Of a stretch of 64,000 bases of DNA, positions 57,522 to 60,150 are shown in pieces. How positions within the stretch are numbered: position 1 is the first letter of the stretch; every line of letters begins with the position of its first letter. The notes below the pieces were generated by a model. The model made no database searches. It saw nothing but the letters and a program-made list of their open reading frames with translations, and was not told the DNA's origin. Made by a program: the position numbers and the translations under genes. Origin of the DNA: Stutzerimonas stutzeri (GTDB taxonomy: Bacteria > Pseudomonadota > Gammaproteobacteria > Pseudomonadales > Pseudomonadaceae); assembly GCF_000952685.1 (NCBI RefSeq), contig NZ_JYHV01000007.1, positions 1-64,000 on the forward strand, read 5' to 3'.

Positions 57522-57549
57522 TTGCATCACTAACGGTCTCTGGTATCAT
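57522..57549 (+). promoter_or_regulatory. Candidate sigma-70 promoter of rpmE
   Basis: TTGCAT (57522-57527), 16 bases, TATCAT (57544-57549): four of six and five of six matches to the -35 and -10 boxes. Transcription would start about 60 bases before rpmE. It is divergent from priA. Confidence 0.6.
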
Positions 57550-57615: not shown

Positions 57616-57828
57616 ATGAAAGCCGATATCCATCCTAACTACGTTGAAATCGAAGCCACTTGCAGCTGCGGCAACGTCATCAAGACTCGCTCCACGCTGG
57701 CCAAGAACCTGAACATCGACGTGTGCTCTGAGTGCCATCCGTTCTACACCGGCAAGCAGAAAGTGCTGGACACCGGCGGCCGTATCGACCGCTTCAAGCA
57801 GCGTTTCGGTGTGTTCGGCGCGAAGTAA
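57616..57828 (+). CDS. rpmE: 50S ribosomal protein L31, zinc-binding form
   Basis: A 70-residue ribosomal protein. Zinc ligands Cys16, Cys18, Cys37 and Cys40 are all present (CSCGN and [11 protein letters not shown]), so this is the zinc-containing paralogue rather than the zinc-free rpmE2 form used under zinc limitation. AGAGGATTTTTCC lies upstream. Its likely terminator lies inside the following gene. Confidence 0.97.
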
Positions 57829-57851
57829 GCTGTCGCCGCGACGGGAATCCC

Positions 57852-58646
57852 ATGAGGTTTTCCGAGCATCTTAAAAAGGCGTCCCTGGTGGGCGCCTTTT
57901 TCGTTTCCGTCTTCTTCAGTCTGCAGGCGCAGGCGCTTTGTCCTGTTAGCGGCCCGCTGCCGTCAGCGAAGGTCGCAACAGTCATCGACGGAGATACTCT
58001 GCGCCTGGTCGATGGGCGTCGCGTACGCCTCATCGGCGTGAATGCCCCTGAAGTCGGCCGCAAGGGGCGCAGTGCCGAACCGTTCGCGGAGGCGGCCAAG
58101 CGTCGGCTGCAAGCACTTGTAAACGCCAGCGGCGGACGCGTGGGGCTGCGGCTCGGTCAGGAGGCCAGTGATCATTACGGCCGACTGCTGGCCCATGCCT
58201 TCGACTCGCACGGTGAAAATCTCGAAGCTGTTCTGCTTGCCGAAGGGCTGGGCTTTTTTGTCGCCATCGCACCGAACACGCTGCTGGCTGACTGTCATCT
58301 CGCCGTGGAACAGCAGGCTCGGCTTGCCGGCAAAGGTGTCTGGCATCAGCCCCCGATCACCTCGGCTGAGCGCCTGCGCCGCGGTGGTTTTGCACTGGTC
58401 AGGGCGCGGGTCGATCGACTGGAGACCAATCGTGGTGGCGTCTGGTTGGAGCTGGATGGCCCTCTGGTGATTCAGGTTCCCCGTGAAGCCGTTGCGTCAT
58501 TCGCCGATTCGCTGAAAGACCTGCCAGGCAAGCAGGTCGAAGCAAGGGGTTGGGTGATCGATCGCAAGGGGCGTGCGGATTTGTCGCGTCAGGCTCGCTG
58601 GCTACTGAGAGCAAGCCACCCGTCAATGCTTGTTCCGCTGCCGTAA
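57852..58646 (+). CDS. Secreted thermonuclease-family (SNase-like) protein
   Basis: A 264-residue protein with an N-terminal signal peptide (SLVGAFFVSVFFSLQAQA, cleavage near residue 28) and a staphylococcal-nuclease-like OB-fold domain (VATVIDGDTLRLVDGRRVRL, IGVNAPEVGRKG, ASDHYGRLLAHAF). The catalytic Arg/Glu/Arg pattern (RLIGVNAPE and YGRLL) appears intact. A further C-terminal part (about 180-264) resembles an OB-type accessory domain (VRARVDRLETNRGGVWLELDG in parts). It starts 23 bases after rpmE with GGGAATCCC upstream. A strong hairpin overlaps its signal-peptide codons. Confidence 0.85.
   Translation: MRFSEHLKKASLVGAFFVSVFFSLQAQALCPVSGPLPSAKVATVIDGDTLRLVDGRRVRLIGVNAPEVGRKGRSAEPFAEAAKRRLQALVNASGGRVGLRLGQEASDHYGRLLAHAFDSHGENLEAVLLAEGLGFFVAIAPNTLLADCHLAVEQQARLAGKGVWHQPPITSAERLRRGGFALVRARVDRLETNRGGVWLELDGPLVIQVPREAVASFADSLKDLPGKQVEARGWVIDRKGRADLSRQARWLLRASHPSMLVPLP
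57873..57901 (+). terminator. Terminator hairpin inside the nuclease coding start
   Basis: AAAAAGGCG (57873-57881) pairs perfectly with CGCCTTTTT (57893-57901), with further inner pairing TCC/GGG around a five-base loop. It has the form of a rho-independent terminator: an A-run before, a T-run after. It lies 45 bases past rpmE, where its terminator is expected, but falls at codons 8-17 of the nuclease gene. Confidence 0.75.
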
Positions 58647-58807: not shown

Positions 58808-60076
58808 ATGACTGACCTGAAAACTGCCGCTCTCGACTATCATTCCCAGCCTCGTCCGGGAAAGCTGAGTGTCGAGCTGACCAAGCCCACTTCCACCGCT
58901 CGTGATCTGTCACTGGCCTACAGCCCTGGCGTGGCGGAACCGGTTCGAGAAATCGCCCGTGATCCGGAGCTGGCTTACCGATACACCGGTAAAGGCAATC
59001 TGGTCGCGGTGATCTCCGACGGCACCGCGATTCTTGGTCTGGGCAATCTGGGGCCGCTGGCATCCAAGCCGGTTATGGAAGGCAAGGGCGTTCTGTTCAA
59101 GCGATTCGCTGGTGTCGACGTGTTCGATATCGAAGTCGATGCGGAAAGTCCTCAGGCTTTCATCGATACGGTCAAGCGCATTTCCATCACCTTCGGTGGC
59201 ATCAACCTGGAAGATATCAAGGCGCCTGAATGCTTCGAGATCGAGCGGGCGCTGATCGAGCAATGCGACATTCCGGTATTCCATGACGACCAGCACGGCA
59301 CCGCTATCGTTACTGCGGCGGGCATGCTCAATGCATTGGAAATCGCTGGCAAGACGCTGGAGCAGGCCAAGATCGTCTGCCTCGGCGCCGGCGCTGCGGC
59401 GACCTCTTGCATGAAGCTGCTTGTCAGTATGGGGGCGAAGGTCGAGAACATTTTCATGATCGATCGCAAGGGTGTAGTCCATGCTGGTCGTGACGATCTG
59501 AATCAGTACAAGGCGGTGTTTGCCCATGAGACAGACAAGCGCACGCTGGATGATGCCCTCGATGGCGCTGACGTCTTTGTAGGCCTGTCCGGCCCCAATC
59601 TGTTGAGCGCCGAAGGCCTCAAGCTGATGGCAGCGAACCCGGTAGTGTTCGCCTGCTCGAACCCCGATCCGGAGATCAACCCAGAGCTCGCTCACGCGAC
59701 CCGTCCCGATGTGATCATGGCTACTGGCCGCTCGGATTATCCGAACCAGGTCAACAACGTGCTGGGCTTCCCGTTCATTTTCCGTGGGGCGCTGGATGTT
59801 CGTGCGACGCGCATCAATGAGGAGATGAAAATCGCTGCTGCGGTGGCTCTGCGTGAGCTGGCCAAGCTGCCGGTTCCGGCTGAGGTGGCTGCTGCTTATG
59901 GCGTTGAGCAGCTTCAGTTCGGGCGTGAATACATCATTCCGAAACCGATGGATCCTCGCCTGATCACCCTCGTCTCCGACGCGGTGGCCAAAGCAGCGAT
60001 CGAAAGCGGCGTGGCGACACTGCCGTATCCGTCGAATTACCCGCTCAAGTCGGTTCACGACGTGTTCAATGGCTGA
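58808..60076 (+). CDS. maeB: Malic enzyme (oxaloacetate-decarboxylating), short form
   Basis: Oxidative decarboxylation of malate to pyruvate, probably NADP-linked. The 422-residue protein has the malic N-terminal domain ([34 protein letters not shown] in parts), the metal/substrate region [11 protein letters not shown], and the Rossmann motif [10 protein letters not shown]. coli MaeB is about 760 residues because of a C-terminal phosphotransacetylase-like domain; that domain is absent here, and the stop is followed by a terminator, so the short form is natural for this lineage. Cofactor is inferred. Confidence 0.92.
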
Positions 60077-60121: not shown

Positions 60122-60150
60122 AAAACCCCAGCCCCGGCTGGGGTTTTCTA
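60122..60150. terminator. Bidirectional intrinsic terminator
   Basis: AAAACCCCAGCC and GGCTGGGGTTTT are perfect 12-base arms with a two-base centre, followed by CTATTTCG. It lies 45 bases past the malic enzyme stop and about 105 bases beyond the end of convergent ponA, and is symmetric enough to serve both. Confidence 0.9.

Follow-up and report, generated by a model that had tools for sequence, protein, structure and literature searches.

A hairpin within the signal-peptide codons of a Stutzerimonas nuclease gene that is most likely the terminator of rpmE

The rpmE-nuclease locus and its hairpin

The window, that is, the whole 64,000-nt stretch of DNA that was analysed, comes from Stutzerimonas, and its closest named relatives mostly carry that label. 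Around the site, priA (minus strand) is followed by rpmE and an SNase-family nuclease gene (both plus), then by a malic-enzyme-like gene at 58808-60076 (plus) and, on the minus strand, a gene for a penicillin-binding protein; priA, malic enzyme and penicillin-binding protein are names judged from the sequences of these neighbours. The rpmE gene (57616..57828, plus; stop codon 57826-57828, plus) encodes the 70-aa 50S ribosomal protein L31 (PF01197, E 1.3e-32; PRK00019 and TIGR00105). A possible rpmE promoter was seen by eye at 57522..57549 (plus), with TTGCAT, 16 nt and TATCAT with an extended -10 (TGGTATCAT from 57541); this putative promoter is absent from the output of a consensus scan.

The nuclease gene (57852..58646, plus) opens with the ATG at 57852, ahead of which a weak candidate Shine-Dalgarno-like GGGAA can be seen by eye (57843..57847, plus). 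Its product of 264 aa, predicted to be secreted, was assigned to the SNase family from the ORF and from a PF00565 match at residues 57-166 in a profile search (E 3.4e-14; 53.6 bits against a cut-off of 21). The predicted signal-peptide codons (MRFSEHLKKASLVGAFFVSVFFSLQAQA; 57852..57935, plus; from the translation) end in a putative cleavage site after AQA, the AQA-L motif being recognised by eye only.

Codons 8-17 of the nuclease gene contain the hairpin that a sequence-only reading of this DNA had placed there (57873..57901, plus). It starts 44 nt past the rpmE stop codon, and its fold, covariation and frozen synonymous sites suggest an intrinsic terminator of rpmE consisting of A-tract, stem and U-tract. 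The 5' arm comprises an A-run (57873-57877), GGCG (57878-57881), a bulged T (57882) and CCC (57883-57885); the loop is TGGT (57886-57889); and the 3' arm comprises GGG (57890-57892), CGCC (57893-57896) and a T-run (57897-57901). The U-rich tract immediately 3' of the stem is UUUUUCGUUU, and the rest of the U-rich tail is CGTTT (57902..57906, plus). The nine pairs of the core described by the sequence-only reading are present, but the A- and T-runs, which it had taken as flanks, are themselves part of those pairs; the G+C core consists of 4 + 3 pairs around the bulged U.

Folded alone, the hairpin has a stability of -17.5 kcal/mol (z -4.05; none of 200 dinucleotide shuffles equally stable), and its core has -11.8 kcal/mol. 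The 105-nt stretch around it is ordinary overall (z -0.88; 40 of 200 shuffles equally stable), and its best fold retains the hairpin. This simple consensus scan likewise does not list the hairpin at 57873-57901 in its output. A separate terminator between rpmE and the nuclease gene was rejected, the intervening space being only 23 nt.

The Rfam 15 covariance models gave no match at the hairpin site, which rules out a known Rfam element there. The matches in the window above the gathering threshold both lie elsewhere: the Pseudomon-Rho RNA (RF01720; 48567-48668, plus; 78.1 bits), a known cis-regulatory family, and the asponA RNA (RF02812; 62424-62716, plus; 128.4 bits), which runs antisense to the beginning of the penicillin-binding-protein gene on the minus strand. 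A terminator-like hairpin at 60126-60143, scored on both strands, lies between converging ORFs that end at 60076 (plus) and 60255 (minus).

Recurrence of the hairpin and constraint on its two readings

The comparison drew on nested samples. For the genus, 56 genomes were searched and one (G025, a weak partial match) was left out; the family set holds 33 loci out of 214 matching family genomes outside the genus, the order set the best-scoring 62 loci out of 83 matching genomes outside the family, and the class set the best-scoring 68 loci out of 122 matching genomes outside the order. A set of named loci, mostly Pseudomonas, overlaps with all of these. At rpmE-linked loci, a terminator preceded by a start codon was scored within the nuclease ORF in 54/55 cases in the genus, 31/31 in the family, 55/60 in the order and 62/67 in the class, and at 48 of the 49 named loci. 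With the strict definition, the counts over all linked loci become 54/55, 27/31, 47/60 and 54/67 from genus to class; all 54 genus loci with a loose terminator call have the strict T-tract. Five order and five class loci have no scored embedded terminator with a start upstream, while the genus exception (L107) and the named exception (L080) are the same broken nuclease, with the hairpin still present. In distant families, the stems are of wholly different sequence. The embedded arrangement is thus wider than the earlier reading could see: order and class loci show it too, on stems that differ in sequence. One nuclease of the family, in genus g3 (L131), is 48% identical, has a signal peptide of ordinary appearance and lacks the hairpin; no rpmE was found near it.

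The hairpin goes with rpmE and not with the nuclease, since it is kept where the nuclease is missing and was not seen where no rpmE was found upstream. In genomes without an intact nuclease match, 25 of 27 rpmE loci have a terminator within 130 nt past the rpmE stop codon (thirty were picked by hand, one of them without an L31 match; L190-L192, with distant or partial L31, were excluded, and 27 were counted). An earlier scanner scored a terminator in L178 too. Single species whose nuclease has been broken, deleted or lost (L080/L107, L163, L165, L177) also retain the hairpin. Conversely, none of eight nuclease homologues without an rpmE found upstream has an embedded terminator in its ORF; three of these are remote (L079, L081, L082), one is weak (L137) and one lies near a contig edge (L299), and five of the eight, including one weak and one near a contig edge, come from the same class. 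The suggestion that the hairpin behaves as the rpmE terminator agrees with these counts and with apparent selection on the stem. The hairpin is most likely an rpmE terminator that is shared with the signal peptide of the nuclease.

Were the hairpin purely a coding feature, synonymous sites in its stem would be expected to drift, and they do not vary. Across 53 Stutzerimonas genomes (48-53 sequences each), the five four-fold sites in stem codons (block codons 3, 4, 6, 7 and 8, third position) have zero entropy. The four-fold site in the loop (third position of block codon 5) takes all four bases in these genomes, with 1.26 bits, and 81 other four-fold sites across the nuclease gene have a mean of 1.39 bits and a minimum of 0.156. 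This analysis used 53 of the 54 genus loci, one being too short, and skipped two codon columns just past the hairpin. Were the hairpin purely a terminator, on the other hand, its length would be expected to drift freely, and the length of the 10-codon motif is fixed. Of 135 linked loci in the genus, family and named sets, 132 match a 10-codon protein motif of fixed length, the exceptions being the two broken nuclease copies (L080, L107) and one locus with differing residues (L125). At rpmE loci of genomes without the nuclease, hairpin cores of 17, 18 and 20 nt are found beside 19.

The earlier reading had called for an alignment of orthologues, and there pairing is indeed kept through compensating changes. 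The genus, family and named sets together give 53 distinct hairpins, almost all from Pseudomonadaceae (two named loci, L056 and L072, are labelled Pantoea); in these, 99.8% of cells are paired and 5 of 12 pairs show two-sided changes. Sliding the partner by 1-3 columns lowers pairing to 44-78%, and none of 500 shuffles reaches the observed covariation on any of five measures, a count that overstates significance because related sequences are not independent. Covariation thus supports selection on the stem rather than proving it, since relatedness inflates the counts and the structure was derived from the same sequences. At one locus of P. cichorii (L075), the compensation (GGCA/TGCC) is synonymous on both sides; other compensating changes alter residues, from Ser/Pro-Gly to Leu-Ser. 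When 96 distinct 30-mers were picked by the protein motif alone, 73 had 12 of 12 pairs and 13 had at most 8, the latter, we think, mostly because they are out of register. The loop gives a more mixed picture: among the 53 hairpins, the Leu third position is its most variable at 1.92 bits, two further positions reach 1.21 and 1.33 bits, and every loop position varies in the 96-sequence set. As these further positions vary too, the evidence for coding constraint in the loop is partial. Taken together, the alignments indicate that selection acts on both readings, the pairing of the stem and the coding frame.

The frame through the hairpin looks like a real signal peptide, as had been proposed from the window alone. 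At every locus with the motif, whether in the genus (54/54), the family (30/30) or the named set (48/48), the 10-residue window of highest hydrophobicity overlaps the FF codons, and all 54 in the genus combine this with at least two K/R. Such a window lies over the U-tract codons in 51 of 56 order and 37 of 63 class loci, counts that use a cruder anchor (the U-tract, sometimes a later T-run, possibly off by about two codons), whereas the genus, family and named counts for hydrophobicity and start codons are anchored on the protein motif. The case for a signal peptide is thus solid up to roughly the order and less so further out; with overlap in only 37 of 63 class loci, some distant members may start after the hairpin.

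Alternative explanations and expression of the nuclease

A signal peptide of the form Lys-Lys...Phe-Phe yields complementary A- and T-runs whether or not anything terminates there, so that the hairpin might be a product of chance. Such peptides do raise the odds of a hairpin. When codons were shuffled with the amino acids kept, 33-48% of shuffles triggered the looser threshold, which is therefore weak alone, and 2.5-6.4% matched the stability of the real hairpin. A strict terminator appeared in 112 of 2700 shuffles of the 54 genus loci (4.2%) against 54/54 real loci, and in 2 of 50 shuffles of the window's own locus; the strict rate for shuffles of loosely called loci was 4.2% in the genus, 8.2% in the family, 10.0% in the order and 10.0% in the class. 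Frozen stem sites, covariation, turnover of the stem between families and retention of the hairpin without the nuclease all speak against chance. We have rejected it on these grounds and regard it as extremely improbable. A further alternative is that the nuclease really starts past the hairpin, which would then be merely the rpmE terminator in the nuclease mRNA leader, crossed by an incidental frame. In its favour, 42 of the 48 named loci have an ATG or GTG within 13 codons past the hairpin block, often right after the U-tract; at one named locus (L060) no start codon intervenes between the rpmE stop and the block, the other 47 having one ahead of the hairpin; the most hydrophobic window lies elsewhere in 26 of 63 class loci; and one nuclease (L234) clearly begins downstream. 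Against it, an in-frame start precedes the hairpin at each of the 54 genus loci that have it (50 ATG, 3 GTG, 1 TTG), and 46 of the 54 have no ATG or GTG in the 13 codons past it, although 9 of those 46 have TTG there. A start past the U-tract would also lose the lysines of the n-region, and the fixed-length motif of the linked loci contrasts with the varied cores found where the nuclease is absent. A start codon past the hairpin is thus unlikely in Stutzerimonas, where we reject it as a rule, and the matter is less clear in the named, mostly Pseudomonas, loci, where we reject it less firmly. As an account of the arrangement as a whole we find it quite improbable.

We consider it likely that the hairpin is the intrinsic terminator of rpmE, that the same bases serve as signal-peptide codons of the nuclease, and that the nuclease is made from transcripts that leak through. 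The same bases would supply the n-region together with the first part of the hydrophobic core, the A-tract reading as Lys-Lys and the U-tract as Phe-Phe. Such an arrangement would be easily tolerated, since AAA and TTT supply Lys and Phe, which fit a signal peptide, in every frame. Most transcripts from the rpmE promoter would end at about 57901. Since the nuclease start codon precedes the terminator, a transcript initiated upstream of that codon has to get past the terminator. The nuclease would be made from the fraction that leaks through, at a level set by the leakiness of the terminator, and can probably be made only when the terminator leaks. Comparison among relatives shows that stem pairs, frame and gene order have been kept together, in line with the earlier proposal that coding and termination share the same bases.

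That proposal left the nuclease dependent either on read-through or on ribosomes disrupting the hairpin, and of the two we favour read-through. In the ribosome alternative, which we consider unlikely, a ribosome beginning translation at the nuclease start codon, or resuming it past the rpmE stop, would cover the 5' arm and block the hairpin so that polymerase passes, and nuclease output would report translation initiation or ribosome stalling. In favour of such attenuation, the window has its start codon 21 nt ahead of the A-tract, and in some Pseudomonas loci an ATG directly precedes it. The study of early-ORF terminators by Li et al. in 2015 was reportedly carried out in E. coli. According to a review that cites Li et al. 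2015 (PMC7858274), coupled ribosomes can antiterminate intrinsic terminators, but termination is close to 100% efficient where the terminator falls within the first 100 nt of an ORF, and less so further in. In the window, as in 43 of the 54 genus loci, 51 nt separate the ATG from the end of the Phe codons, which would leave little time for ribosome loading; together with the near-complete early termination described in that review, this favours leakage over antitermination by ribosomes. The spacing from start to hairpin varies among relatives, and the hairpin's persistence in the best fold of the 105-nt stretch also counts against attenuation.

Terminators as a possible source of signal peptides, and known systems

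How common such an overlap might be was gauged in a sister genome (G046), where our own scripts found 1065 ORFs and 591 strict terminator-like sites in 1.2 Mb. Among these sites, 148 lie within 150 nt past the end of an upstream gene and 130 deep inside genes. A loose criterion for embedding is satisfied by 28 site-gene pairs, some of them duplicates, and two look canonical by eye, one of them the rpmE hairpin and the other lying in a PF00144 gene. The latter (L315 at about 2219; G046 C1:282219, minus) is a perfect 9-bp hairpin with a T-run inside a signal peptide. None of 26 relatives (L362-L387) has a four-T run directly after it, and 10 of the 26 have a weaker hairpin at the loose threshold. 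As no relative keeps the T-run, we take this hairpin to be unconserved and do not count it as a second instance.

Intergenic terminators in the same 1.2 Mb often read as signal-peptide-like: by a crude peptide measure at one threshold in one genome, 46 of 106 (43%) have some frame in which K/R precedes a hydrophobic stretch. The corresponding figures are 307 of 2120 (14%) for shuffles and 97 of 742 (13%) for intergenic controls. This roughly threefold excess over controls agrees with the notion that, whichever frame is read, a terminator already goes half the way to a signal peptide. We put forward, tentatively and as a possibility that we hold with some doubt, that terminators are a standing source of signal peptides, their A-tracts giving lysines and their U-tracts phenylalanines whatever the frame. 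The rpmE-nuclease pair would be an instance fixed across much of the Gammaproteobacteria, in which a neighbour's terminator was captured as an export signal, leaving an obligate read-through gene whose output reports termination in the cell.

If the reading given here is right, two codes, for RNA termination and for protein export, occupy the same 30 bases and have been kept across much of the class sample. The case makes testable the ideas that terminators in early codons act as permanent throttles on expression and that terminators seed signal peptides. An annotation restricted to intergenic terminators would overlook this hairpin. No paper on a conserved terminator inside a signal peptide was found among the matches listed in the open-licence literature, outside which most subscription journals lie, and the main text of a P. 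aeruginosa 3'-end study does not contain 'rpmE' (PMC8297930).

The hairpin shares with intrinsic (Rho-independent) terminators an A-tract, a G+C stem and a U-tract shortly past a stop codon. It is unlike them in sitting within the early codons of the next gene, with whose signal peptide it appears to be co-selected. In the pyrBI attenuator of E. coli, the leader ORF pyrL runs into the terminator and encodes a disposable leader peptide. An open frame thus crosses the terminator region upstream of the expressed genes there too; unlike pyrL, however, the frame at rpmE is the predicted export signal of the enzyme itself. The rpsU-dnaG terminator of E. coli is an internal operon terminator that sets a gene ratio. 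In Ruminiclostridium ABC importers, too, intergenic terminators within operons set gene ratios (PMC9045158). On the reading given here, the rpmE hairpin would resemble both in lying between a highly and a weakly expressed gene, with read-through supplying the second. It differs from the terminators of PMC9045158, which are described as intergenic, in that the downstream start codon precedes the terminator. In Sinorhizobium meliloti metA, according to PMC9373788, a terminator lies between AUG1 and AUG2 together with a SAM-II riboswitch, and translation proceeds from AUG2. The likeness lies in a terminator placed past a potential start codon; translation of metA starts after its terminator, whereas the rpmE-nuclease frame runs through the hairpin, where no Rfam riboswitch was matched. 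Ratio-setting terminators between genes (PMC9045158) and a terminator between two starts (PMC9373788) are known already.
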